Position numbers and translations under genes: made by a program | Part shown: piece by piece, positions 785-29,409 of the stretch | How positions within the stretch are numbered: the first letter of the stretch is position 1 | Layout: each line of letters begins with the position of its first letter | Notes under the pieces: model-generated | Database searches by the model: none | Told to the model about the DNA's origin: nothing | Seen by the model: only the letters and a program-made list of their open reading frames with translations | Assembly: GCA_910574935.1 (NCBI GenBank) | Contig: CAJTCU010000002.1 | Coordinates: forward strand, 124,001-188,000 | From: Oscillospiraceae bacterium | GTDB lineage: Bacteria; Bacillota; Clostridia; Oscillospirales; Acutalibacteraceae | Reading direction: 5' to 3' | Length of the DNA: 64,000 nucleotides

Positions 785-822
785 AGGCTAAACTTAATGG
801 TATTGCCCAGCTCAGGCCACAT
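785..822. mobile_element. Solo IS-end remnant joined to half a palindrome
   Basis: Positions 785-808 nearly match the terminal inverted repeat of the IS4-family element at 19,085-20,559 (CAATRCCATTAAGTT read outward). The next bases, 809-822, look like a degraded half of the dispersed palindrome. This is the arrangement expected at one end of an IS inserted in a palindrome, but no transposase and no second end are found nearby. The stop codon of the M23 gene (812-814) lies inside this junction, so the last residues of that protein are derived from it. Confidence 0.55.
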
Positions 823-2912: not shown

Positions 2913-2939
2913 AAATGCGTCCCAACTTGGGACGCATTT
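2913..2939. repeat. Dispersed ICE palindrome, copy 2 (perfect 27 bp)
   Basis: Half-site AAATGCGTCCCAA, one central base, then its exact complement. It lies between the stop of the C5 methyltransferase gene and the RBS of the cell-wall hydrolase gene. It is the most symmetrical member of the family. Confidence 0.9.
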
Positions 2940-2944
2940 CCACG

Positions 2945-4000
2945 CTAATTTACTGAATTTTTGATACCCTCCATAATGTAAAATGCACATGGCAGGGCAA
3001 TAGAATTTCCCAGCGCCATATACCGTTGGGCCGGGCTAATCATCTCGCCTGCTGCGCCGAACTCCGTCCAGCCGTCAGGCAGGCCCATAGCTCGCTCGGT
3101 TTCCCGCTCTGTCAGATAGCGGACACAGCCGCCCACTGGGTCATCCTCGTACCAAAAAGCAAAGGGCGCGTTCCGGCTGGCAAGGATGGTGGGGAACGGG
3201 TCATCCTTCTTACCAAAGCTGCCTATAAACTGTGCATGGTTCTGGTTCGCGGCTGCGGCCCTCATTCTGTACATTTGAAAGGGGTAGACGATGGGTATGT
3301 GCCCCCCTGTTTCAAGAAAAGGGCCTCTATCTCCGGGGGCGGCGGGACTCCCACACGGGCCGCCAGCTCCAGAAAATGTGAGCACGCCCGGGGGCCTAAA
3401 GAGTATGGGGGCAGCACGCCGCCCTCTAAAATCTGCCAGGAGAAAGACGCGCTTTCTTCGGGCCAGAGGGGGCCTTGCCCAATATTGGGCGTCCATAAGC
3501 CGCCAGGCCAAATCAGGCTGTTCCCCTCTAACCATGCCGGCGTTTGCCCACTTCCCGGAAGCAGGCATTGGAACCGGGCGCCCCGCGAAAGCTGTGAGCA
3601 CGGCTCCAAAATCCAGCCGGTTTCCTGATGAAAGGCTTCCCATAACGTTCTCCCAAACAGCGAAAGTTGGAAATATATTTCCAGTGGCATCCCTCATTTC
3701 GTTTATGATCCTGATAGCTTGAAAAAACAGGTTCGATTTCTTACCGGCAAGCCCTGCCCGGTCGCCTATCTGTGAGAGATTTTGGCAGGGTGAGCCGAAA
3801 GTAATAATGTCAACGGGAGGTATCTTCCCGCCGTCTAACAGTGTGATATCTCCCAAGTGCGCCATGTTGGGGAAGTGGCGCTTGGTGATGGAAACCGGCG
3901 CTTTCATAATTTCGCTGGCCCAAACAGGCTCTATGCCGTTGAGCCTTGCCGCCAGAGGGAACACGCCGATGCCATCAAAGAGACTTCCTAATGTCAGCAC
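2945..4000 (-). CDS. DNA (cytosine-5) methyltransferase
   Basis: It transfers a methyl group from SAM to C5 of cytosine in DNA. Residues 1-20 hold the SAM motif (LTLGSLFDGIG). The catalytic motif IV is ITFGSPCQNLS, with Cys in the PC dipeptide, and an ENV-type motif VI is seen in AVWENVMGS. The RKRVFLLADF segment is motif VIII-like, and the C-terminal ALGNSIALP is motif X. Length (351 residues) fits a solitary ICE-borne enzyme, and there is no restriction endonuclease beside it. The GTG start overlaps the VirB4 stop (TAGTG), so the gene is translationally coupled to the conjugation genes. It probably protects the incoming or excised element from host restriction. Confidence 0.9.
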   Translation of the reverse strand: MLTLGSLFDGIGVFPLAARLNGIEPVWASEIMKAPVSITKRHFPNMAHLGDITLLDGGKIPPVDIITFGSPCQNLSQIGDRAGLAGKKSNLFFQAIRIINEMRDATGNIFPTFAVWENVMGSLSSGNRLDFGAVLTAFAGRPVPMPASGKWANAGMVRGEQPDLAWRLMDAQYWARPPLARRKRVFLLADFRGRRAAPILFRPPGVLTFSGAGGPCGSPAAPGDRGPFLETGGHIPIVYPFQMYRMRAAAANQNHAQFIGSFGKKDDPFPTILASRNAPFAFWYEDDPVGGCVRYLTERETERAMGLPDGWTEFGAAGEMISPAQRYMALGNSIALPCAFYIMEGIKNSVN

Positions 4001-6327
4001 TAGGATTCACCGGGGGTGGTTGTCATAAGTTTATAGAGGGCTGTGTCGCGGGGTATGGTGTTGGTGAAAGGCACCAACGCCCCGCCCATACGGAGCAGGC
4101 CATGTCCGGCCTCGGCGTTCTCTATGTAACCCATCTGCGTGTCGGACAAGTGGAGAAGCTGGGCCAGCTCTGCCCGGTCGGTGGCGGCCTGGTTAAAGAG
4201 CAGCAGAAATTCAGAGTTGGCGAACATAAGCCGGGCGGTTTCCGAACGCAAACATTCCTCGACGTTCTGCGTGGCTGCTGTCAGGGGTGCGCCATATTTG
4301 CGCCAGCGCTTCCAGGCGCGGTAGAGGACTTCGGCAGAGTAGTGATACTTAAAATACAAATACACTTCGTCTATAAAGACCCAGGTATACTTGCCTTTTC
4401 TGCGGTTGGCGGCAACCCGGTTCTGGATAGCCTCAAGGGTAACGACCAAGGCCGTGGGCCGAAGGCTTTCGCCCATTTCGTAAAGGTCGATGGCAACCAG
4501 GCGGTTGTCCATGTTCACGTTGGTTTCATGGGCAAAAACATTCAAGCTGCCCTCAGTGATAAGCTCGGCGGCAAGGGCAATTTCCCGGGCTTCGGGTTCT
4601 GTCTGCTTTAATACTTCGGCGCGCCAGTCTGTCAAAAGCGGGGCGGGCAGCTTCCCCTTGCTCTTGAGGAAAGGCCGGTAGACATTTGCGGTGCAGCGGT
4701 CTATAATAGACTTGTGGCTGCCGGTGATGCGTCCCGCGCCCATCTGCTGTTCCAGAATACTGGTGATAACCTCGGATTTCAAGGCCACCGGGTTTTCGTC
4801 CTCGCCGTACCCCTCTGCCATGTCCAGGGGTGAAATGTGGTGCGGGCTGTGTGGGGATATCTCCACCACCTCGCCGCCCAGGGCGCGGACAAGGGGGCCA
4901 TATTCGCGCTCGGCATCTATGATAATAATATCATCGTTTGTACCGAGTGCAACATTGGTTATTGTGGATTTCATTGCCATGGATTTACCAGAACCAGACA
5001 CGCCCAAATAAAAGCCGTGGGGAGAGATCAGGCGCTTGCGGTCGCAAATTAACAGGTTCTTGCTGACAGCATTTACGCCATAATACATCCCGCCGGGGTC
5101 TTGTATCTCCTGGGCGCGGAACGGCATAAGGACGGCGGTGCTCTCCGTTGTCAGGGTACGCAGGGCCTTCACCCGGCGCAGGCCATAGGGCAAAACGGTA
5201 TTCAAGCCGTCCTCCTGCTGGTAGCGCAGGATGGAGAACTGGCAAAGGTGCTCCCGGCCGATGGCAAGGAGGGTTTCGGTGTCGGCGTCAAGCTGTTCCA
5301 GGGTGTCGGCAACGTGGGCCAGGGTGACGACGGCGAACATCATGCGCTGGTCGCGGACGGTGAGATCGTCCAGAAATTCTTTCGTTTCGGCCCGAAGCTG
5401 CTCCAGCTCATAAGGAACGCTGGCCGTAAAATTGTTTTTGGAGTTCTGGCGCTGCTGCCAGCGGGTGATGTCCGATTCCACGCCCAAAATGCGCTGTTGG
5501 ATTTCCTTGACAGCTTCGTCCGTGGGGACGGGCAGGATGTCAATAGCAATCACCAGATTCCGGGCGAAATCGGAGAGGTCGGCAATCATTTCATCTTTGA
5601 TGTAGCTGGCGTACTCCTTGAGAAAAAGCACTCTGCCAAACTTGCCGCCCATCTCGAAGTGCCCGGCCTTGAATTGCAGACCGTCCGGGCAGATCAGGTC
5701 TTTGTAGTCCACGCCGTGGCGGATGGCGGCAGCTTGGTCGAAGGTGAAATACTGCTCCTCGCCGGGACGGAAAAAGTCGTGGAGAAGGCGCAGGCGTTCA
5801 TAGTTGGAGATGGCTCGTGCGCCGGAGTCCAGCCGCCCAAAATTCTTCCTCAAATTTCCATCCACCCGACGGAAATAAGCGCGGCTGTCCTCGATTTTCC
5901 GCTGAGCGATAGACAGAGTGATGTATTTCTCCTGCACTAAGTCGTTGCTCTCGGCGGCCTTGCCTATCAGGATATCGTTGTATTCTCCGCGGTACTTGTC
6001 CAGCTCGTTCCCCTGCTCTTTCATTAGGACGGAACGGCGGAAGTCCACCGGGTTCAGCCGCCGGTTGATGATGTTGATTTTCGCGGTGGCGTCCGTGGGC
6101 AGGGAGTTCAGCACGGCACTGTAGGACAGAAAAATACTGCGCCTGTCCTCGTTTGACGCAGCGGCATAATTTACATCGGCAAAACGCCATGTGCGGCTAT
6201 GCTTGCCGCCCACCTGCCAAATGCCGTCGCTGTAGATTTTCTTGATGGGGATAGACTGCTGGACGCTGCGGGGGATTGCGAACGTGTCTTTTTCGCTCTT
6301 ATTGGCGGCTATGAGGGATTTAATCAA
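4000..6327 (-). CDS. virB4: VirB4-like conjugation ATPase
   Basis: This is the cytoplasmic ATPase that energises the type IV secretion channel. The C-terminal half has Walker A (GVSGSGKSMAMKS), Walker B (YTWVFIDEVYLYF) and the downstream TAATQNVEECL segment typical of VirB4/TraE. The N-terminal 350 residues match the VirB4 N-domain layout, including the region after the start with FAIPRSVQ. I chose the TTG at 6327, which sits about 10 nt after AAGGAG and overlaps the PrgI stop; the open frame runs further upstream to 6381 but that stretch lies inside prgI. About 775 residues is normal for the family. It lies between PrgI and the C5 methyltransferase in one operon. Confidence 0.95.
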   Translation of the reverse strand: MIKSLIAANKSEKDTFAIPRSVQQSIPIKKIYSDGIWQVGGKHSRTWRFADVNYAAASNEDRRSIFLSYSAVLNSLPTDATAKINIINRRLNPVDFRRSVLMKEQGNELDKYRGEYNDILIGKAAESNDLVQEKYITLSIAQRKIEDSRAYFRRVDGNLRKNFGRLDSGARAISNYERLRLLHDFFRPGEEQYFTFDQAAAIRHGVDYKDLICPDGLQFKAGHFEMGGKFGRVLFLKEYASYIKDEMIADLSDFARNLVIAIDILPVPTDEAVKEIQQRILGVESDITRWQQRQNSKNNFTASVPYELEQLRAETKEFLDDLTVRDQRMMFAVVTLAHVADTLEQLDADTETLLAIGREHLCQFSILRYQQEDGLNTVLPYGLRRVKALRTLTTESTAVLMPFRAQEIQDPGGMYYGVNAVSKNLLICDRKRLISPHGFYLGVSGSGKSMAMKSTITNVALGTNDDIIIIDAEREYGPLVRALGGEVVEISPHSPHHISPLDMAEGYGEDENPVALKSEVITSILEQQMGAGRITGSHKSIIDRCTANVYRPFLKSKGKLPAPLLTDWRAEVLKQTEPEAREIALAAELITEGSLNVFAHETNVNMDNRLVAIDLYEMGESLRPTALVVTLEAIQNRVAANRRKGKYTWVFIDEVYLYFKYHYSAEVLYRAWKRWRKYGAPLTAATQNVEECLRSETARLMFANSEFLLLFNQAATDRAELAQLLHLSDTQMGYIENAEAGHGLLRMGGALVPFTNTIPRDTALYKLMTTTPGES

Positions 6328-6664: not shown

Positions 6665-7233
6665 AAATTACCACTCCTTTTTTGTGTCCCAAGTTGGGAC
6701 GCATTAAATTCAATCGAGCTTTCAACCTCGTTGCCCCACGCGTCCCAGCCAGGCGTAACCTGCCGGGCAAAAAGTTCAATACGGGGGATATCTCCCATAA
6801 GGGCAACAATTTTTTCCCGGACAATATCCGGCTTTTTGCTGTGTTGTTCTATGGGCGAGATGATAAACTGGTGGACATTCGCAGCTTGCCTTTTGGGATG
6901 GCCTCTGGTGGCTAAAAGGCAGATCTCCGCGTTTCCTCTCGTCCAGAACCCCAGGCCATAGAACCAACTGTCAGCCTTGCGGTTTTTCTTCAGCCAGACA
7001 AAGGCCACTGTTTTATAGTGGAAGCCCCACGCCTTTATAAGACGCAATGCCTCCGGCAGTTGGGGGAAAGTTGACCAGAGGAACAGGGCACAGTCCGGGG
7101 CGGCAATGTCTGGAATAGGCAGGGCGCTAAGCTGGTCTATGCTCATAGTGGGGTAATGCTTTTCAGCGGCGCCCTGGAAAGTCTTTTGCTCATACTTCCA
7201 GGGCGGGTCAGCATAAATCACAGTATATTTCAT
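6661..7233 (-). CDS. MT-A70-family adenine methyltransferase
   Basis: MT-A70 proteins methylate N6 of adenine. The N-terminus YTVIYADPPWKYEQ carries the DPPW catalytic motif, and the core runs through CALFLWSTFPQLPEAL and NAEICLLATRGHPKR. The length (190 residues) is normal for the phage/ICE type. The start ATG overlaps the VirB6-like stop (ATGA) and its own stop overlaps the PrgI start, so it is embedded in the T4SS operon. The last residues (NASQLGTQK) are encoded by a copy of the dispersed palindrome, so the C-terminus was extended or replaced when that repeat arrived. It may work with the C5 enzyme in protecting transferred DNA. Confidence 0.9.
   Translation of the reverse strand: MKYTVIYADPPWKYEQKTFQGAAEKHYPTMSIDQLSALPIPDIAAPDCALFLWSTFPQLPEALRLIKAWGFHYKTVAFVWLKKNRKADSWFYGLGFWTRGNAEICLLATRGHPKRQAANVHQFIISPIEQHSKKPDIVREKIVALMGDIPRIELFARQVTPGWDAWGNEVESSIEFNASQLGTQKRSGNL
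6683..6706. repeat. Dispersed ICE palindrome, copy 3
   Basis: Near-perfect copy (TGTGTCCCAA / TTGGGACGCATTA) lying over the 3' end of the MT-A70 gene and just ahead of the prgI RBS. It is the only intact copy that is substantially coding. Confidence 0.85.
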
Positions 7234-8083: not shown

Positions 8084-8109
8084 AATCTGTCCTAAGTTGG
8101 GACGCATTT
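8084..8109. repeat. Dispersed ICE palindrome, copy 4
   Basis: Imperfect copy (AATCTGTCCTAA / TTGGGACGCATTT) directly ahead of the GGAGG that serves the VirB6-like gene. Confidence 0.85.
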
Positions 8110-10210: not shown

Positions 10211-10235
10211 AATGCGTCCCAAGTTGGGACAGATT
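10211..10235. repeat. Dispersed ICE palindrome, copy 5
   Basis: Near-perfect copy (AATGCGTCCCAA / TTGGGACAGATT); one arm runs directly into the GGAGG of virD4. Confidence 0.9.
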
Positions 10236-17287: not shown

Positions 17288-19006
17288 TCACCTTTCCTTT
17301 GCGGCGTCTTTCACTGCCTGCTTGGCCTTCTGCCTTTCCTCGGCCTTTTTCTGTAAATCAAGGGCATTGAAAACCTTGCGCTTGACCTCACTGACCGTGG
17401 GGGCCTTGTCATTGGGGAAATACTCCTTGAGCTCACCGCTGGTAAAGGTGTACTTGATTTCGGGTTCAGCCTTAGGCTTGACGATAGAAGATATCTTCTT
17501 TTCGTCCAGCGGAGCGGGGGCCTTAGCGGGCTTGGTGGGTGCAGGGGGAGCAGCTTTCTCCGTTGGCTGAGTGGCATTACCAGTAAGTGACGGTTTGGGG
17601 GTAGAGGCGGCTTTCTCCGGCGCAGGGGCAGCTTTCGCGGCATCTTGGCTGGTCTTTTTCATCGCCGTGGCCTGGGCCATAGTGGGGACAATGCCCTCTT
17701 TCTTGATAAAATCCACCACCTTTTCCTGCTCCTCGGGCTTGAGGTAAGACAGCTCCACCGCCGTATTGAACGGCATTTCCTTTTTGTCCACCTGCTGTTT
17801 CAGGTCTGGCACAAGGGATTCTATGCGCACCAAACGCTGAACCTGGTTGCGGCTCATGCCTAAGTCCTCGGCCACCTGCTGGTCGGAACGCTTTTGGGGC
17901 CCGGAAAGCTGCTCCATCTTGGAGCGCCGCCCGGCCTTGCGGGTCAGGGCATCCAGCTTCATCTTGGCGGCACGGGCCAGCTCAGATGTGGGGATATCCT
18001 GGCGGTGCAGGTTGCCGTCCACCACCTCGATGCGGGCGGTATCATCATCCTCCCGGACGATCACCACGGGCACGGGATAGTTTAACTGCTTGGCAATATC
18101 GTGCCGCCGATGGCCAGAAAGCAGTTCCAGGCCGCCGCCCTCACGGGGCCGGGCCTTGACCGGCTCGTTGATGCCGTTTTCTTTGATGGACTCATACAAA
18201 TCCTTATAGTCCTGGACTTCCCGGTTAATGGAAAATGGGTGGTCTAAGAACTCAAAGAAATAACCGGGGTGCAGGCGCATGGAATAACCCTCGCCCTCCT
18301 GGGGCACAGGCAGGCTTTTCAGCGCGGATTCATCGGGCTTGTCCAGCTTATCTGCGAAAATCTGTGTCACTTTGATACCTTTGGGCGGCTCCACAGCGGT
18401 ATCTTTCGCGGGGCCAGATGCGGGGGCAGCTTTGGTACCACTGGCCTTTACCGGGGCCTCGGGCTTTTTCTCGTCAGTGGCAGGAGCAGCCTTGGTGTCG
18501 GTAGGCTTAACCGGGGTATCAGGTTTCTTGTCACCAGCGGCAGGGGTGGGCTTGACATCGGCGGTCTTTGCCGGGGTTCCTGGCTTCTTATCACCATCAG
18601 CAGGGGCGGGCTTGGTGTCGGTGGGTTTAGCCGGGGTATCGGTTTTTTTATCGCCAGCAGCAGGGGTGGGCTTGACATCGGCGGTCTTTGCCGGGGTTCC
18701 TGGCTTCTTATCACCATCAGCAGGAGCGGTCTTGGTGTCGGTAGGTTTAGCCGGGGTATCAGGCTTTTTGTCGCCAGCGGCAGGTGCGGGCTTACTGTCA
18801 CCAGCCTTTGCTGGGGGCTCGGGCTTTTTATCACCAGTGACAGGTGCAGCCTTGATATCAGCGGGTTTAGTCGTGGTATCAGGCTTCTTGTCGCCAGCAG
18901 CAGGAGCAGCCTTGGCGTCAGCAGCTTTCAGCGCCCCATCGTCCAGCTTTGTCTGTTCGGGCCTTTTTTCGACCGGGGATATGTCTTTTTTCTTGGTATC
19001 GGGCAT
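17288..19006 (-). CDS. ParB/Spo0J-like protein with a long repeat linker
   Basis: This is probably a DNA-binding partition or regulatory protein of the ParB family. Residues about 20-200 form a Pro/Ala/Lys linker built from repeats of about 20 residues (GDKKPDTPAKPTDTK-like). The ParB N-domain follows, with ELLSGHRRHDIAKQL (the GxxR CTPase-type motif region) and EVVDGNLHRQD. A helix-turn-helix lies in SDQQVAEDLGMSRNQVQRLVR. The C-terminal third is a second Ala/Pro-rich region and a basic end. The ATG at 19,006 follows AAGGAGG. No ParA gene is seen; the place where one often lies is taken by the IS. The protein is a candidate binder of the dispersed palindromes. Confidence 0.85.
   Translation of the reverse strand: MPDTKKKDISPVEKRPEQTKLDDGALKAADAKAAPAAGDKKPDTTTKPADIKAAPVTGDKKPEPPAKAGDSKPAPAAGDKKPDTPAKPTDTKTAPADGDKKPGTPAKTADVKPTPAAGDKKTDTPAKPTDTKPAPADGDKKPGTPAKTADVKPTPAAGDKKPDTPVKPTDTKAAPATDEKKPEAPVKASGTKAAPASGPAKDTAVEPPKGIKVTQIFADKLDKPDESALKSLPVPQEGEGYSMRLHPGYFFEFLDHPFSINREVQDYKDLYESIKENGINEPVKARPREGGGLELLSGHRRHDIAKQLNYPVPVVIVREDDDTARIEVVDGNLHRQDIPTSELARAAKMKLDALTRKAGRRSKMEQLSGPQKRSDQQVAEDLGMSRNQVQRLVRIESLVPDLKQQVDKKEMPFNTAVELSYLKPEEQEKVVDFIKKEGIVPTMAQATAMKKTSQDAAKAAPAPEKAASTPKPSLTGNATQPTEKAAPPAPTKPAKAPAPLDEKKISSIVKPKAEPEIKYTFTSGELKEYFPNDKAPTVSEVKRKVFNALDLQKKAEERQKAKQAVKDAAKER
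18451..18930. repeat. 60-bp tandem repeats in the parB-like gene
   Basis: About eight consecutive 60-bp units encode the linker of the ParB-like protein. Units alternate between two variants, so 120-bp blocks are almost identical (for example 18,547-18,606 and 18,667-18,726). The period is exact, which shows recent expansion by slippage or unequal recombination. Confidence 0.9.
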
Positions 19007-19024
19007 TAAATTCCTCCTTCTTTT

Positions 19025-19048
19025 TGTGTCCCAACTTGGGACATATTT
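19025..19048. repeat. Dispersed ICE palindrome, copy 7
   Basis: TGTGTCCCAA / TTGGGACATATTT, directly ahead of the RBS of the parB-like gene and about 25 bp from copy 8. Confidence 0.9.
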
Positions 19049-19084
19049 TTTACGGATAAAGCCAGAAATGTGTCCCAAGCTGGG

Positions 19085-20559
19085 CAATGCCATTAAGTTA
19101 ACCATACATCAAAGCAGCCATCAAGGTGCTATTCATCGAGAGGAGAGATAAAAGCAAGAAATACGATTGCCAGATGAGGAACGTCTGGGGAAAACTCTGC
19201 CAGGGCGAACCGGAAGGCGTTTTCTGCGAAGGAGAGCCTCCAAATTCTTCACAGAACGGCGCAGGAAACGGCAGCAGGCAAAGACAGCGTCGGAGAAGTT
19301 GAGGCGCTGTCTTCTTTTCTGCGAATCCTGCGATATTTTCACACCCCAGGAAACGGCTTGCGCAAAGTTGAAAATCAGGAAAGCGGCGAAAACCTCTTGC
19401 AAAACCAGCATCGGGATTTTCGAGTGGAGGTGGATCAGGCCCACCGTGTATTTCAGGCTGCGGAAGGAGGTTTCAATACCCCAGCGCCTGGCGTAAAGCG
19501 CCTTCAATTTTTCAGAAGGGAACTCCTCCGAATCCAGATTTGTGATCAGAGTTTCTGTGTCCCCGTCACTGGTCTCTATACGGACAGCCCGAAAGTGAAG
19601 TGCATAAAACTCTGTTCTCCCAACAGGCAGAAAATCGAATGTTCTTTGGGCAGTGAGATGATAGTAATTTTCTGGAATGGACGCATTTGTCTTCTCTAAT
19701 TGACCCTTGGAAAACCGGCCCAGAGCCAGGGTTACGGGTTCGTCAAACATCGGGGAATCCGGCAGCCGCACGCCAAAAATGGAGTCCCGTTCTTTCAGGC
19801 GGATCACATAGTTCCAGCCCCGGTTTTCCAGGTGGGCCAGGTTATTCAGAGAGCCGTAATTCCGGTCGGCCAGGACAATTACAGGCTCTGAAACGGAGGA
19901 ACGGTCTGCCATTTCGCACAGGGCCTTGTTTTCGTTTTTTTCGTGCTCTTTTTGCACGATCAGATCCGTGTAGATCCCATTTTCCAGGTCAAAAAGCGCG
20001 TTTATGTGATGCTTGTTCCACCCATGCTGGCGGTCTGTTCCGGGGAGGTAGGAAAGCGGGTCTTGGGGATACCCAGCTGATTTCAAGGACGAGCCGTCCG
20101 CGGCGAACAGGCGGTATCCATGGTATTTCTTTTCCGGATGGAGCTGATTTGTAAACCCGTGGAATAAGGCTTCCAGCGCTTCGGGCAGCAGCTTTTTCCG
20201 CTGCTGCACAAACGCGGGGGTGGAGGGTGCTTTTTCCTGGAAATGGAAGGATTTCATCAGATTCTTACCCACGCTTTCGCTGCCCATAGTGAGCAGAAGA
20301 AGTATGATTTTTTCAAAATCCAACGCCCTGTGGCGGGTAAAATCTTTTCCGGGCCGGTTGGCGTATGCTTCCGGGGTTTTTCCCAGCTTTTTGACCAACG
20401 AGAGCAGCTTTTTGCGCAATCCTTTTGCAGTGTGTTCCATCCTTTTTGCCCCCTGAAAATCTTTTTTCAAGGGGCTTCGCCGCATATTTTTTCTCTTTTG
20501 TCAAGGGTTTTTGTCTTTTCTTTATGGTTTTTTAGAGATTCCTTATCTTAATGGCATTG
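19085..20559 (-). mobile_element. IS4-family insertion sequence with 11-bp target duplication
   Basis: The 1,475-bp element has terminal inverted repeats beginning CAATGCCATTAAG on both ends. It is flanked by identical 11-bp copies CCCAAGCTGGG at 19,074-19,084 and 20,560-20,570, which is a target duplication of normal size for IS4-family elements. The target is the centre of a dispersed palindrome, with a CCC-N5-GGG layout close in style to the symmetric target known for IS231. Confidence 0.92.
19133..20440 (-). CDS. IS4-family DDE transposase
   Basis: It catalyses cut-and-paste movement of the IS. The first Asp lies in RLFAADGSSLKS, the second in VIVLADRNYGSL, and the Glu in the IS4 signature YARRWGIETSFRSLK, which matches the Y-x2-R-x3-E-x6-K pattern exactly. 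The 435-residue frame is intact, so the element may be active. I chose the ATG at 20,440 (MEHTAKGLRKK) after a purine-rich GGGGGCAAAAAGG; the frame is open to an ATG at 20,485. The basic C-terminus runs almost to the left inverted repeat. Confidence 0.93.
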   Translation of the reverse strand: MEHTAKGLRKKLLSLVKKLGKTPEAYANRPGKDFTRHRALDFEKIILLLLTMGSESVGKNLMKSFHFQEKAPSTPAFVQQRKKLLPEALEALFHGFTNQLHPEKKYHGYRLFAADGSSLKSAGYPQDPLSYLPGTDRQHGWNKHHINALFDLENGIYTDLIVQKEHEKNENKALCEMADRSSVSEPVIVLADRNYGSLNNLAHLENRGWNYVIRLKERDSIFGVRLPDSPMFDEPVTLALGRFSKGQLEKTNASIPENYYHLTAQRTFDFLPVGRTEFYALHFRAVRIETSDGDTETLITNLDSEEFPSEKLKALYARRWGIETSFRSLKYTVGLIHLHSKIPMLVLQEVFAAFLIFNFAQAVSWGVKISQDSQKRRQRLNFSDAVFACCRFLRRSVKNLEALLRRKRLPVRPGRVFPRRSSSGNRISCFYLSSR

Positions 20560-20619
20560 CCCAAGCTGGGACACATTTCCAAACTCTATGCCATATTCCT
20601 GTTGCAATTTTTAGGAAAT

Positions 20620-21918: not shown

Positions 21919-21947
21919 GAAAGCCCCTTTGGGAGCTTTCTTTTTTT
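21919..21947 (+). terminator. Intrinsic terminator after the SLH-CAP gene
   Basis: Stem GAAAGCCCC / GGGAGCTTTC followed by seven T residues. It ends at the stop codon of the convergent DUF11 gene. Confidence 0.85.
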
Positions 21948-24900
21948 ACCATTCATCGTCCAGCAGCTTTATCCAGGTTTCCCGGCCCTTGCTGTCCTTG
22001 GTGTATTCGTGGCTATTGCTGACCTCGGCCACCAGCGGGGCAAAGGAACCCACATCTGTAAAGGTGCGCCCTATCAGCCCGCTGCGGTCGGGGTTGGTGT
22101 CACGCTCGGTAAAGGCACAGAAATCACTGGCTATCTTGATACGGCTCACATGGGCTTTCGGGTCTGCGATATAAGCAGTAAAATCTCTCTTGAACGCTTC
22201 TCCCAGTATACGGTACGCCTGTTCCTGGGTAGCGGGGCCGCTCCCTATGGATTCAGAAGGATATTCCGTCGGGGAAACCATCCCTAAAGACATCAGGAAA
22301 CGGGCCTCCACGGTTTTGACAGCATCGGGCACAGTTTTTGTCCCCGCACCCAAAGATTTGCGGTAACCGTCCGTCATGATGCGGTACGCGAGCTGGCATA
22401 CCTGCCGGAGGGTAATGGGGTCGTCAGGCCCCCATTTGTGGGTGGGGTTCCCATCGCTGTCACCATAGCCAACGAACATGGCATAGTGGATATCCGTAAA
22501 GGGGATCGTCACATCATCCATAATGGATACCTCCGGGGCGGTGACGTTCACGTCCCTATGGCTGGTGCTCTTTAGGGAGGCATGGTTGGTGAAAGCCTTG
22601 CCCGATGCGTCCGTCTTGAACTCCACGCTGAACACGGCCTCTACAGACTGCCCAGGCTGAATATCACCCAGGTCTATCACAAGGTCGCGCCCGTCAAAAT
22701 CCCACACGGCCTTGGACGCTTTCACGCCGTCGATGGTGATGGAATCGTTGAGCAGGGTCATAAGAGAGTTGTCCAGAGTATCGACGGCCTGGACGCCGCT
22801 CCACACCTTGTCACTGGTATTGCTTGCGGTGATGGTGTAGGTAATGGTTTCATGGGGCTGCACGATGGTCTTGTCCACGGTCTTTGTACCGCTGGGTTGC
22901 TGGACAGGCTTGTCCGGCTGGCCGGGCGTGGGGGTAGGCGTAGGCGTGGGTTCGGGAACCGTCACCCCAGGGTCAGTGCCGGTCTTATCTCCGTTGTCCC
23001 CCTTGCCAATAGCCGTATTGGTGATGGTCGTACCCTCCGCGCTGTCCAGGACGCGCACGTCAAATTCGATAACGGCCTCCTGGTTGGGCTTCAAGTCCCC
23101 GGCGGCAACCTCAATAGCCCGGCCCGAAATTCCATAGGAGACCGTCTTGCCGTCCACCCGCACAGAACCGGACAAAAATTCCAGCCCAGCGGGTATCACG
23201 TCGGAAACCGTGACGTTCTTCCAGTCGGCGGTAGCGTTCGCACCGTTCTTCACCTTGATAGTGTAGGTGAAAATGTCACCGGGCTTGGCCTCGCTCTTGC
23301 TGGCGCTCTTGGAAAGAGACGGCTCGGTCTTGCCGCCGTCAATGTCCACACCAGTATCGGGGAGTTGAATGTCCTCCCGGTCAGGGCTTTTCACGATGGC
23401 GGTGTTGGTGATGTACATTCCCTGTGCCCCCTCGTCCACGGTGACGCGGAACGAGAAAGTTTTGGTCTGTCCCGGCTCCACGGTATCAGCCAGGAGTTTT
23501 AGTGTGCGGCTGCTGGCGTTGTAGGAAAAATCATTGGTTGACCTGCCGTTTATCTCCACGCTCCCGGAAACAAAACTCAGGTGCTCGGGAATAACGTCAA
23601 TGACTTCGACATTCTTCCAGGGGCCAGAGGCGGTAGAAGCGTTGCGCACGGCAAGGGAGTAAGTAAGCGTATCGCCCACTTTGGCCTTGGACTTGTCCAC
23701 GGTTTTAGCGCTGACGCTGCCCTCGGCCTTGCCGTCTGTCACGGTCACATCACTGGGCGTGGTGACGGTAACGGGCCCACCGTTTTTTGCGGTGATAACG
23801 GCTGTATTCCCGAACTTTTTCCCATAGGCGTTTGAGTTGACCGCCGCTGTAAAAGTGACGGTTTTCGTCTGGCCCGGAGCGATATCCCCCAGCTCCACCC
23901 GGAGCTGCCGGGCCGTACCGTCAAAAAAATGACGGGCAGGAAGGCCGTCCACCTGGACGCTGTTGGGGTTCAGGGTCAGGTATTCGGAGAGGGTATCGGT
24001 TACAACTACATCTTTCAAATTGGACGTAACCTTGTCGGAATTGTGGGCGGTAATGGTGTAGGTCAGGATATCGCCCACTTTGGCAGTGGTCTGGCTGACG
24101 GTCTTTGTGCCGCTCAACTCGCATTTCCCCAGCCCAATTTCCACGCCGTTGTCGCTGGCGGTGCGCTTGCCGTTATCCCCCTGGGCAGTGGCAACATTAC
24201 GGATGATATCCTCGGCGGCACGCTCCAAAACCTTCACCTGGAACGTCACCCGGACACTCTCGTTGGGCTTCAGATCGCCAAGCTGTACTTCCAGCACCTG
24301 CCCGGCGAGGGTATATTTTGTAGTGGTATCGTCAACGGCAACGGTGCCGCCCACCAGCTCCACGCCAACCGGGAGCACGTCGGCGAGCACCACGTTTTTC
24401 CAGTCAGCGGTGGCCTTGGCTCCATTCTTGACTTCCACGGTGTAGGTGAAAGTATCTCCGGGCTTGGCCTTTTTCACGCTGGAGGTTTTCGTCATGATGG
24501 GCTCGGTCTGGCCCCCGCCGATCTCCACACCAGTGTCCGGGAGCTGCATATCCTCCCGGTCGGGGCTGGTGACTTTGGCGGTGTTCACGATGTACTGCCC
24601 CTGGGTCCCGTCCTCTACCGTAACGCGGAACGTATAGGTCAGGGTCTTGCCGATTTCAATTTTGTCGGCAATCAGGGTCAGTGTGCGGGTGTCGGCATTA
24701 TAGGAATAATCGTTGCTGGAACGGCCGTCCACTTCCACACTGCCGGGGACAAAAGCCAGGTGTTCGGGAATCGTATCCGTCACCTTGACATTTTTCCAAT
24801 CAGCAGTAGCGGTGCTGGCGTTGCGCAGGGCGATGGAGTAGGTAAGGGTATCGCCCACATTAGCCTTGGACTTGCTGACCGTCTTGGCCCCGGAACTGCC

Positions 24901-27129
24901 CTCGGGCACGCCTGCCGCCACGGTCACGCCGGTATCAGTAGCGGAAATATCATCGAAATTGTCCGCGCTCAAAACGGCGGTATTACTGAACTTCTTGCCA
25001 TAGGCGGCATTGTTCACCAGGGCGGAAAAAGTCAGCACCTTGCTCTTGCCGGGGGCAATATCGCCCAACTCGGCGGTAAGCTGGCGGGTCTTGCTGTTGA
25101 AGGTGGTGCGTACCGGGCTGCCGTCCACGGCCACGCTGCCCTGGTTGAAAGTGACGTATTTAGGTAGTGTATCAGACATGACAACATTCCGCAGGGGAAC
25201 AGTAGCAGTGTCGGCATTGCTGGCGGTAATGGTATAAGTCAGGGTATCGCCCACCTCGGCCTTAGACTTGTCCACGGTCTTTGCAGCGGACATTTTCGCG
25301 GTGCCGTCCTCAACGGTCACGCCCTCGTCAGAGGGGACAACTGGGTCACTGTTCTCTGCACCCAGAACGGCGGTGTTCTGGAAAGCCTGCCCATACGCGG
25401 TGCTGTTGACTTTCACCTGGAAAGTGACTGCCTTTTCAGCGCCCGGGGCTATCTCCCCCAGCTCAACGGTCAGGGCGCCCTTTTCAAAACGGTAGCGCCC
25501 GCTGGCCCCGTCCACCATGACGCTGCCCTGCACAAAGTCCACGAAAGCGGGGAGGGTGTCTGTCAGGGTAGTATCTTCCAGCGGAGCGGTGGCATCCTCC
25601 GCGTTCTTGGCGGTGACGGTATAGGTCAGGGTATCGCCCACCTTGGCCTTACCCTTATCCACGGATTTTTTTGAGGTAAGCCCCGGCTTGCCGTCCTCTA
25701 CCTTGGTACTGCTGTCCGTAACGGGCACATCCTCGCTGTTATCAGCTCCCAGAATGGCAGTATTGGAAAGGGTTTCGCCGTAAGCGGTATCTTTGACGAT
25801 AGCCGCGAAAGAAACCTTTTTGCTCTTGCCGGGGGCAATATCCCCCACGTTCACGGAAAGCAGGCCGGTTTTCACGTCAAAGCTGTATCTGGTGTTTTCT
25901 CCGTCTACCAGCACGCTGCCATAGACAAAGCCTAAATGCTGGGAAAGGGTATCGCTCACGACGGCATTTCTCAAAGTGCCGGCAGCGCTCTTGTCGTTGC
26001 CGACGGTGACAGTGTAGTGGAGGGTATCGCCCACTTTCGCCTCAGCCTTATCCACTTCCTTAGAGCCGGTCATAATTGCCTGCCCCTGGCGGTAGACGTA
26101 GGTGATCTCTGTGGTGTAGCCCAGGTAGTTGCGGTTCTTAAAATCCCTGGGAGCGCGGGCGGTCTGGCCCTTTGTGGTGATGGGTTCTGCTATCTCGTTG
26201 CCCTCGCCGTCTACGAAACGCTCCACAACGGTATTAAGATTTTCCTCATTGTAATTCAGCTTGTGCCAATCGGCGGCGTTGTGCTTGACCGTGGCCTCGA
26301 TGAGCTCCCCATAGGCCCAGTAGCTTTCCGAAAGGTCTTTGTAAGGGTTCTTGACCCCCAGCGCCCGGAGTTCCTCTGCCGTGATTTTTCGGTTGCGCAG
26401 GCGGTTTATCAGGGTGACAGTCTCGGCCCGGCTGATCTCGCTTTCGGGCCGGAAAGTGCCGTCCGGGTAGCCCACGATCCAGCCAGCCTCGGCGGCGGAA
26501 TTGATATCATCGTAAGCCCAGTGGGTCTTGTTAATATCACTGAAGGGCGCGTTCTCCGCCTGGGGCAGCTCGGCAAAGGCAGCGGCCATGGCCGCGAACT
26601 CCGCCCGGGTGATAGCCGCATAGGGCTGGAACTTCCCGTCCCCGCACCAACTGAGGATGCCCGCGTTGTAGCAGACAGACAGCTTGTCATAATACCACAC
26701 GCCGGCGGGCACGTCGAAAAAAGTCTTTTCCGTCAGGTGCTGCTTGGCCTCCGGGTATACGCCGTTGTACAGCCGGGAAAAAATCGTCACGGCCTCGCAG
26801 CGGGAAAGGCTGCGGTCCCCCCGCACGGTCTTGTCCGGGTAGCCAACGATGAAGTTGATTTCTTCCTGGGAGTAGATATGGTCGGTAGTCTGGGAAAAGC
26901 TCTCAAACTCATACCCTGCGATGGCGGGCGCGTCCTTGACCCAGCTTGATTTACTGGTGGTGGGTGGGGCCAGCTCACGGCTGGTGCTTTCGTCGATATA
27001 GCGTTCGGTCAGGGCGCCGGGGCCGCCGGGGACCAAATCCTCCGCGGCAAAGGCCGGGGTGGTCATTGTCCCCATGACGGTCAGCAGGGACAGGAGCAGG
27101 GCCATAAACTTGCTGGTGATTTTCTTCAA
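21946..27129 (-). CDS. Giant SLH/DUF11-repeat surface protein
   Basis: A 1,727-residue exported adhesin-like protein. The signal peptide is residues 1-29 (MALLLSLLTVMGTMTTPAFA). SLH repeats at about 75-260 (NFIVGYPDKTVRGDRSLSR, WSYDKL-type and GWIVGYPDGTFRPESEISR) anchor it to the wall. A MucBP-like segment follows (TVVERFVDGEGNEIAEPI). Then come about ten DUF11-type Ig-like repeats of about 120 residues, each beginning with a variant of KTVDKSKAKVGDTLTYTV and ending in TNTA-like strands. A Pro/Thr stalk and one more repeat precede a C-terminal SLH-like region (IHYAMFVGYGDSDGNP). It is probably cargo that changes the host surface. Neighbouring repeats are similar enough in DNA to recombine. 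Confidence 0.9.
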   Translation of the reverse strand: MKKITSKFMALLLSLLTVMGTMTTPAFAAEDLVPGGPGALTERYIDESTSRELAPPTTSKSSWVKDAPAIAGYEFESFSQTTDHIYSQEEINFIVGYPDKTVRGDRSLSRCEAVTIFSRLYNGVYPEAKQHLTEKTFFDVPAGVWYYDKLSVCYNAGILSWCGDGKFQPYAAITRAEFAAMAAAFAELPQAENAPFSDINKTHWAYDDINSAAEAGWIVGYPDGTFRPESEISRAETVTLINRLRNRKITAEELRALGVKNPYKDLSESYWAYGELIEATVKHNAADWHKLNYNEENLNTVVERFVDGEGNEIAEPITTKGQTARAPRDFKNRNYLGYTTEITYVYRQGQAIMTGSKEVDKAEAKVGDTLHYTVTVGNDKSAAGTLRNAVVSDTLSQHLGFVYGSVLVDGENTRYSFDVKTGLLSVNVGDIAPGKSKKVSFAAIVKDTAYGETLSNTAILGADNSEDVPVTDSSTKVEDGKPGLTSKKSVDKGKAKVGDTLTYTVTAKNAEDATAPLEDTTLTDTLPAFVDFVQGSVMVDGASGRYRFEKGALTVELGEIAPGAEKAVTFQVKVNSTAYGQAFQNTAVLGAENSDPVVPSDEGVTVEDGTAKMSAAKTVDKSKAEVGDTLTYTITASNADTATVPLRNVVMSDTLPKYVTFNQGSVAVDGSPVRTTFNSKTRQLTAELGDIAPGKSKVLTFSALVNNAAYGKKFSNTAVLSADNFDDISATDTGVTVAAGVPEGSSGAKTVSKSKANVGDTLTYSIALRNASTATADWKNVKVTDTIPEHLAFVPGSVEVDGRSSNDYSYNADTRTLTLIADKIEIGKTLTYTFRVTVEDGTQGQYIVNTAKVTSPDREDMQLPDTGVEIGGGQTEPIMTKTSSVKKAKPGDTFTYTVEVKNGAKATADWKNVVLADVLPVGVELVGGTVAVDDTTTKYTLAGQVLEVQLGDLKPNESVRVTFQVKVLERAAEDIIRNVATAQGDNGKRTASDNGVEIGLGKCELSGTKTVSQTTAKVGDILTYTITAHNSDKVTSNLKDVVVTDTLSEYLTLNPNSVQVDGLPARHFFDGTARQLRVELGDIAPGQTKTVTFTAAVNSNAYGKKFGNTAVITAKNGGPVTVTTPSDVTVTDGKAEGSVSAKTVDKSKAKVGDTLTYSLAVRNASTASGPWKNVEVIDVIPEHLSFVSGSVEINGRSTNDFSYNASSRTLKLLADTVEPGQTKTFSFRVTVDEGAQGMYITNTAIVKSPDREDIQLPDTGVDIDGGKTEPSLSKSASKSEAKPGDIFTYTIKVKNGANATADWKNVTVSDVIPAGLEFLSGSVRVDGKTVSYGISGRAIEVAAGDLKPNQEAVIEFDVRVLDSAEGTTITNTAIGKGDNGDKTGTDPGVTVPEPTPTPTPTPGQPDKPVQQPSGTKTVDKTIVQPHETITYTITASNTSDKVWSGVQAVDTLDNSLMTLLNDSITIDGVKASKAVWDFDGRDLVIDLGDIQPGQSVEAVFSVEFKTDASGKAFTNHASLKSTSHRDVNVTAPEVSIMDDVTIPFTDIHYAMFVGYGDSDGNPTHKWGPDDPITLRQVCQLAYRIMTDGYRKSLGAGTKTVPDAVKTVEARFLMSLGMVSPTEYPSESIGSGPATQEQAYRILGEAFKRDFTAYIADPKAHVSRIKIASDFCAFTERDTNPDRSGLIGRTFTDVGSFAPLVAEVSNSHEYTKDSKGRETWIKLLDDEW

Positions 27130-27631: not shown

Positions 27632-27658
27632 AACTGCGTCCCAACTTGGGACAGATTT
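27632..27658. repeat. Dispersed ICE palindrome, copy 9
   Basis: AACTGCGTCCCAA / TTGGGACAGATTT. It marks the left edge of the plus-strand ATPase/nuclease cargo. Confidence 0.9.
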
Positions 27659-29382: not shown

Positions 29383-29409
29383 TAATGCGTCCCAACTTGG
29401 GCCACATTA
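29383..29409. repeat. Dispersed ICE palindrome, copy 10
   Basis: TAATGCGTCCCAA / TTGGGCCACATTA. It overlaps the stop codon of repA and marks the right edge of the plus-strand cargo. Confidence 0.9.

Follow-up and report, generated by a model that had tools for sequence, protein, structure and literature searches.

An IS4-family insertion sequence centred in a parS-like palindrome of a conjugative element, and the target preference of its lineage

The element, its palindromes and the inserted IS

The window, i.e., the whole stretch of 64,000 nucleotides that was analysed, comes from the 4.17-Mb genome (G000) of an Oscillospiraceae bacterium, where it spans C2:124001-188000, and carries genes for a TraG/VirD4-like protein, a relaxase, a HerA/TraG-type ATPase, an ArdC-like protein and RepA_N proteins. 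The label ICE, used here as in the preliminary description, denotes an element known from these genes rather than from mapped ends or an integrase. A palindrome recurs along it; two copies stand in front of a ParB-like gene, and one of the two is now split by an insertion sequence (IS). The features are as follows, with the strand where one applies:

785..805, minus strand: remnant end of a related IS, CAATACCATTAAGTTTAGCC on the minus strand, common to G282:C9
806..822: degenerate palindrome beside the remnant; the corresponding gene end in G217 has an intact palindrome
2918..2934: ICE palindrome copy, directly 5' of an M23/lysozyme-like gene
6685..6701: ICE palindrome copy
8088..8104: ICE palindrome copy, directly 5' of a GGAGG
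10215..10231: ICE palindrome copy, on the 5' side of the TraG/VirD4-like gene
17288..19006, minus strand: ParB-like protein, 572 aa (ParB_N, HTH_ParB, GHRRHDIAK motif), its start placed behind an AAGGAGG
19027..19043: unbroken sister copy of the palindrome, TGTCCCAACTTGGGACA, lying between parB and the IS
19065..19073: outer arm, on the left, of the palindrome split by the IS, GAAATGTGT, also in the G282 empty site
19074..19084: left 11-bp target duplication, CCCAAGCTGGG
19085..20559, minus strand: IS4-family insertion sequence, 1475 bp, inverted ends CAATGCCATTAAG(T/A)TAA, delimited by its sequence and its inverted and direct repeats
19133..20485, minus strand: transposase, 450 aa, intact frame, DDE_Tnp_1 (Pfam PF01609, E=3.3e-24; NCBIfam NF033592 IS4, E=3.4e-45)
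20560..20570: right 11-bp target duplication, CCCAAGCTGGG
20571..20579: right-hand counterpart of this arm on the far side of the IS, ACACATTTC, also in the G282 empty site
27637..27653: ICE palindrome copy
29388..29404: ICE palindrome copy; the orthologous site in G307:C98 holds an IS

The 11 bp that the insertion duplicated form the core of a palindrome that reads (C/T)GTCCCAANTTGGGAC(A/G), with outer arms that are often AAATG and CATTT, and that is parS-like (GTYYCA-N3-TGRRAC). At up to three mismatches it occurs nine times in the window, the two IS-split halves included, where 0.33 occurrences would be expected. In the whole genome, all eight places at up to two mismatches fall within C2:119147-153404, and 16 more appear at exactly three mismatches, i.e., the two split halves and 14 scattered ones; a reversed control pattern gave eight at up to three mismatches. 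Most copies lie at gene ends or directly 5' of the ribosome-binding sites of minus-strand genes.

The ParB-like protein, whose Pfam and NCBIfam matches were obtained on the longer frame 17288-19105, also matches Spo0J/ParB/Noc in the PDB, and a recurrent parS-like palindrome is found beside a ParB-family gene. Chromosomal parS is TGTTTCACGTGAAACA, and the GTTTCAC form of the palindrome corresponds to this sequence plus one extra central base. A scan with the TraG-like protein gave 51 loci, mainly from Oscillospirales, of which 30 hold at least two perfect-arm copies of one palindrome type (the types counted being GTCCCAANTTGGGAC, GTCCCACNGTGGGAC, GTCTCA-N3-TGAGAC and GTTTCA-N3-TGAAAC); the other 21 include those named Gemmiger or Fournierella, with a TraG of no more than 45-48% identity. 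Of 75 loci examined, 14 contain ParB-like core sequences (two pairs of these 14 are one and the same stretch), and the GTCCCAA class has a different recognition-helix region from the GTTTCA/GTCTCA class. Taken together, the palindrome is probably the operator of the ICE's ParB-like protein, which would bind it. The insertion alters the control region of the gene for this protein, and this may affect ICE stability or transfer.

Several other observations concern the ICE and its cargo. Near-repeats make up a long N-terminal stretch of the ParB-like protein, and its gene (17288-19006) can be aligned with that of G318 in many registers shifted against each other; at position 5225 of another locus (L086, G318:C1:2474000-2484000), the same palindrome adjoins another ParB-like gene (45% identical). 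A two-gene candidate anti-phage cassette (27749-29360, plus strand; PADLOC HEC-02A, E=1.9e-101, and HEC-02B, E=3.7e-37) sits between the palindromes at 27637 and 29388. At the apparent cassette site in G217, G318 and G282 the palindromes are just 36-38 bp apart, and the cassette looks as if it had been inserted between the two. The ICE also carries a C5-cytosine methyltransferase (2945-4000, minus strand), whose best PADLOC match is an orphan methyltransferase, and, as cargo, a 1727-aa surface protein with SLH and nine DUF11-type repeat stretches (21946-27129, minus strand), 91% identical in G282 and G217.

The IS itself has the termini CAATGCCATTAAGTTAA and CAATGCCATTAAGATAA and is taken up entirely by one transposase gene, the tniABQ module being absent from it. 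It is the single match in its own genome, by DNA and by protein. For subgroup IS4 of the IS4 family, Table 1 of PMC2266710 lists ends of the form -AATR--------WTW----, and the entry gives a size of 1400-1650 bp and a duplication of 10-13 bp; subgroup IS231 is listed there with ends CAT-------AA--TAA. Both termini agree with the tabulated IS4 pattern, the length of 1475 bp and the 11-bp duplication (11 bp also in four paired copies of G307) fall within these ranges, and the single frame has a DDE fold and the motif Y-(2)-R-(3)-E-(6)-K, read off the translation as YARRWGIETSFRSLK. Judged by ends, size and YREK spacing as set out in that table and text, the IS has the features of subgroup IS4; it begins CAAT, not CAT, and so does not have the ends of subgroup IS231. 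Among plasmids, the best tblastn match of the transposase is 42% identical (Paenibacillus, IS4 family), with many IS1675-like proteins at 38%, and protein searches for the IS in a genome-contig collection and in viral contigs gave no match. One viral junction match (L172) was rejected as an IS end, the sequence there being CAATGCCATTAAGTACC.

An empty site was found in a related ICE, as the preliminary description had proposed to look for. Acutalibacter sp. 1XD8-33 (G282:C6, NZ_RAZF01000011.1) has an ICE most of whose proteins are 84-97% identical, and it keeps the uninterrupted site GAAATGTGTCCCAAGCTGGGACACATTTC at the corresponding place; the alignment, in which 235 of 257 positions are identical to the window minus the IS and one duplicate, runs unbroken across the site. 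The insertion is therefore real and exactly central, as that description had claimed. It had also held that removing the IS and one duplicate restores a perfect repeat, which is true of the arms: the joined flanks read GAAATGTGTCCCA-AGC-TGGGACACATTTC, with perfect 13-bp arms around an asymmetric 3-bp centre. The restored palindrome differs at this centre from its sisters, which have AAC or AAG, so it has no exact sister copy.

Its further claim, that a related IS end is joined to another palindrome half at 785-822, stands for the IS end, which lies at 805, reading leftward, next to CCCAGCTCAGG; the palindrome is degenerate here. The junction is common to G282:C9 (97.8% over 900 bp), and G217 has the intact palindrome CGTCCCAAGTCGGGACG by the corresponding gene end (89.9% identity over the alignment of 832-900). 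In the 12 kb to the left of the remnant, neither a second IS end nor a convincing second duplicate was found.

Insertions of the lineage within the genus and in other ICE types

IS ends at up to one mismatch are present in 6 of 29 genomes of the genus. Insertions were recognised by these ends and events were deduced from assemblies, many with one end only; the transposase gene is seen at few of them, so the insertions need not all be one IS. Four to seven of the 22-25 insertions in total lie in ICE palindromes, the upper bound including G314:C63, a degenerate site on a contig with weak ICE similarity. The copies are thus not all in the palindromic repeat, as they would be for a REP recogniser of type 1, and 18 further independent insertions, the majority, are outside ICE palindromes.

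The hits in the ICE concern four distinct positions: the parB-distal site (window and G318), the remnant at 785-822, the site at C2:119147 (G307 C92 and G300 C32) and that at 29388 (G307 C98). At every counted ICE hit, as far as ends are seen, the insertion point is fixed in the central 11 bp. The G318 insertion lies at the parB-distal site in the opposite orientation to that in the window, with the duplication CCCAGCTTGGG; the orthologue of 29388 in G307 C98 has CCCAAGTTGTG, with one end seen, and the orthologues of C2:119147 in G307 C92 and G300 C32 have CCCAACTTGGG, with one end seen in each. These four positions, with the scores and the modelled share described below, bear out the earlier proposal that this IS lineage repeatedly lands in the palindrome and that the ICE supplies its own landing sites.

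The number of events is less certain than the number of positions. The insertions in G318 and the window share the ICE position, and IS and flank are equally diverged between them (71.7% and 70.7% identity), so they may be one event; their duplications are reverse complements of each other, and one insertion followed by in-place inversion, with clean loss in G282, may be the history. The ICE DNA of G300 is nearer to the intact copy of the present genome (90%) than it is to G307 (81%), which favours two events at the C2:119147 site, with independence uncertain. In G318, the ICE copy and a chromosomal copy of the IS are identical over 1465 bp, with one TAA in each frame, and by this identity the IS moved there recently. 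G307 has about 13 copies, counted from ends, and zero palindromes at up to one mismatch.

Outside this group, three ICEs of other groups have ISs in such sites, with GTCTC or GTTTC cores. In G1008, both IS ends are in the palindrome (GTCTCACCGTGAG / CGTCTCACCGTGAG), the transposase is 55% identical and the insertion is surrounded, in two fetched stretches, by ICE genes and seven intact palindromes. In L121, an IS with a 41% identical transposase splits GTTTCA-type arms and adjoins TraG, and in L104 one IS end lies at CTCACCGTGGG, in front of TraG. The two central duplications differ from each other by a single base in G1008 and by two bases in L121, which we take as later mutation.

The junction pattern matched 3 of 400 genomes of another family and its reversed control 1 of 400. 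In G820, one IS end is in GTTTCACCGTGAG and four other IS ends of that genome are elsewhere; the 16-kb stretch gave zero matches to the window's ICE proteins, and G820 is not counted as an ICE. The junction match in G911 was not counted either, its contig having no transposase and no recognised ICE gene. Among smaller elements, one of about 155 bp in L145 (G448:C18) has two ends like those of the IS family and a 10-bp matching repeat on each side, and is perhaps a MITE; L157 and L161 have a similar end spacing and a less clear repeat.

A probable target of about 29 bp and the explanations for it

A target model was built solely from insertions outside ICE palindromes. It rests on 18 symmetrised duplications and 23 outer arms, each 9 bp long, which belong to more than one IS type and were taken from five genomes. 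The 18 rows are what remained of 28 non-palindromic ends after exclusion of six second ends of paired copies (of which the pair GTTAAATTGGG has one mismatch between duplicates), the remnant CCTGAGCTGGG, the imperfect repeats without transposase GATTATTATAT and GCGAAAGAAGG, and CACTAGTATAC, from the same locus as the G300 site; CTCAATGTAAG is a further second end, wrongly flagged as palindromic by the classifier, and L020, with its divergent end CAACGCC..., never matched. The consensus of the model is AAAATGTGT|GTCAAATTGAC.

Scored with it, 30 distinct intact ICE sites (from G000, G282, G217 and G318) reach 13.5-19.7 bits, with a median of 15.4, and the best of 319,509 background windows reaches 13.6; the background, which is a sample and does not amount to a whole genome, consists of 39 fetched stretches that overlap in part and in which palindromes were masked. 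The likelihood ratio is 843 for the arms alone versus 104 for the core alone. In a 3.5-Mb genome with 10 ICE sites, the model places 1.8-25.6% of insertions in these sites, depending on which of four pseudocounts is used (1.8% under the strongest smoothing), and the bootstrap gives a median of 13.7% (5-95%, 1.3-49%), a range that covers the observed 4-7 of 22-25 and is wide because the model rests on 18 sites. Unnormalised plain ratios would give 20% (10 sites) or 30% (15 sites), the normalised values being preferred. A model from G307 alone (11 duplications, 15 arms) yields 11%, and 1.3e-5 of the background reaches the ICE median. Intact sites of other ICEs have median scores of 14.7 (GTCTCA, n=73), 9.1 (GTTTCA, n=47) and 14.3 (GTCCCAC, n=3). 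An earlier core-only model, with a likelihood ratio of at most 97 and 0.004-0.007 expected ICE hits of 26, far below those observed, was superseded once the arms were included, and chance was rejected as an explanation.

The reverse comparison, of off-ICE targets with the ICE half-site, gave z=7.7 (Mann-Whitney p=1.6e-8; 0 of 5000 column permutations as good), with p=4.7e-6 for the arm alone and 7.8e-6 for the core alone. The match peaks at shift 0 of 14 shifts, in a set that included four rows later dropped. As the classifier takes palindrome-like sites out of the off-ICE set, this likeness is understated, if anything. When the model is instead built on 55 ends of ISs that are more distant but end similarly, the likelihood ratio for the ICE sites is 3, and the preference looks like a trait of this IS lineage, not of every IS with such ends.

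These data point to direct recognition of DNA: the IS4-subgroup element probably entered the parS-like operator because its transposase recognises a sequence of about 29 bp to which the ICE operators show the closest match found. The target would be roughly AAATGnGT-CYYAANTTGRG-ACnCATTT, i.e., A-rich TG-GT arms around the 11-bp core, and it would be read by the transposase itself; the ParB-like protein of the ICE would bind the same palindrome, as KorB binds its operators on RK2, and the ICE would thereby carry the IS to new hosts. What can be read directly from the assemblies is the central insertion, the empty site, the recurrent ICE hits, and the same motif in the same register at off-ICE insertions. 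Direct recognition could be extended further, to a 'parS hunter' lineage tuned to the ParB operators scattered along ICEs of several Oscillospirales groups, following the drift of their cores (GTCCC, GTCTC, GTTTC) and lodging in the vehicle to the next host, with insertions elsewhere as near-misses. This extension is tentative, and we regard it as slightly more doubtful than not.

The ParB-like protein could also act more directly, by recruiting or activating the transposase on the palindrome, as resolvase-occupied res sites attract res site hunters of the Tn5053 type, a precedent described in the relevant passages of PMC7765201. The parS-like sites do adjoin a ParB-like gene, the HTH region of the protein differs between the GTCCCAA and the GTTTCA/GTCTCA classes, and ISs hit all three core types. 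However, the off-ICE insertions share arms and core in register, for which direct recognition accounts with no need of ParB, and the observed ICE share falls within the range predicted from the motif by itself; recruitment is not needed for the data and is an unlikely explanation. Selection after landing appears less probable still: with a loose insertion preference, insertions in intergenic ICE operators would be kept as the least harmful to the host, in keeping with ICE sites that are intergenic or at gene ends and with the presence of an old remnant, but such selection would not give the same base preferences, in exact register, at off-ICE insertions.

The preliminary description had compared the CCC-N5-GGG symmetry of the duplication with the target of IS231, which would make any such sequence, or any palindrome or hairpin, a good target and the ICE site one of many. 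More distant relatives have CCC-N5-GGG in 4 of 55 ends, some being two ends of one copy, and a more distant IS with similar ends (L005, G152:C1:485842) sits at the centre of a terminator-like hairpin, GGCGGAGCAGCTGCTCCGCC. Yet among the 18 off-ICE duplications of the genus none has CCC-N5-GGG and none, read by eye, GGG-N5-CCC; the long arms outweigh the core in likelihood ratio, and hits in TTC- and CTC-type cores do not fit. Both arms are known at seven off-ICE sites, two of which represent a single orthologous locus; these sites have 3-6 of 14 mirrored complementary positions against a background of 3.6 +/- 1.7; none is palindromic, and a hairpin structure is thus not required. The generic hairpin was accordingly rejected, as was CCC-N5-GGG as a rule for this IS; it stays a tendency of distant relatives. 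The IS231-like explanation is highly improbable. The analogy was given up, ends and YREK spacing fitting subgroup IS4 and the recognised target being longer; aligning the duplications of other copies, as had been suggested, brought out the match to the ICE half-site in place of the CCC/GGG symmetry.

Significance and comparison with known systems

The usual view is that ISs travel on conjugative elements by chance. Here, a target motif deduced from insertions outside ICE palindromes coincides with the ICE's own repeated control site, which would make the association predictable from sequence. If direct recognition by the transposase is true, this is a one-gene, protein-only case of an element that locates its carrier through the carrier's own operator, and the question of how an IS4-type transposase reads 29 bp of target would become experimentally tractable.

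The closest known kind are the REP-targeting ISs (IS1397, ISKpn1, IS621, and ISRm22 of the IS4 family), which likewise insert at a fixed point of a dispersed intergenic palindrome, as described in the sections of PMC1525189 that deal with them. According to the same sections, the transposases of IS1397 and ISKpn1 appear to set the specificity, and 'type 1' ISs such as ISRm22, which repeats 6 bp, have all their copies in REP. Unlike these, the present IS makes 11-bp duplications, has a target repeat that is ICE-borne and parS-like, and has most of its copies outside that repeat. Closest in ecology are the res site hunters Tn5053/Tn402; according to PMC7765201, these seek a functional site of other mobile elements and travel with them, but they possess tniABQ genes and seldom transpose unless a resolvase is supplied from outside. 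The present IS, in contrast, has one DDE transposase, and its off-target sites follow the same DNA motif.

Work by Hallet et al. in 1994 reportedly established the symmetric target GGG-N5-CCC for IS231A. This IS4-family member of subgroup IS231 shares with the present IS a symmetric target and, from the subgroup entries of PMC2266710, duplications of 10-12 bp, and differs in its ends (CAT... versus CAAT...), its subgroup and the inverse symmetry of its target; in addition, long arms matter here. No description of an IS or transposase targeting parS, ParB or ICE palindromes was found in a literature search, a weak result as subscription journals were mostly outside its reach.

The operators of KorB are spread along plasmid RK2. 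They resemble the palindrome in serving a ParB-family protein and in lying on a conjugative element upstream of promoters, as stated in the relevant text of PMC11790492; the likeness covers the palindrome only, and binding by the ICE's ParB-like protein is a prediction. What distinguishes the present case from known palindrome-targeting ISs is that the repeat is probably a mobile element's own ParB operator.
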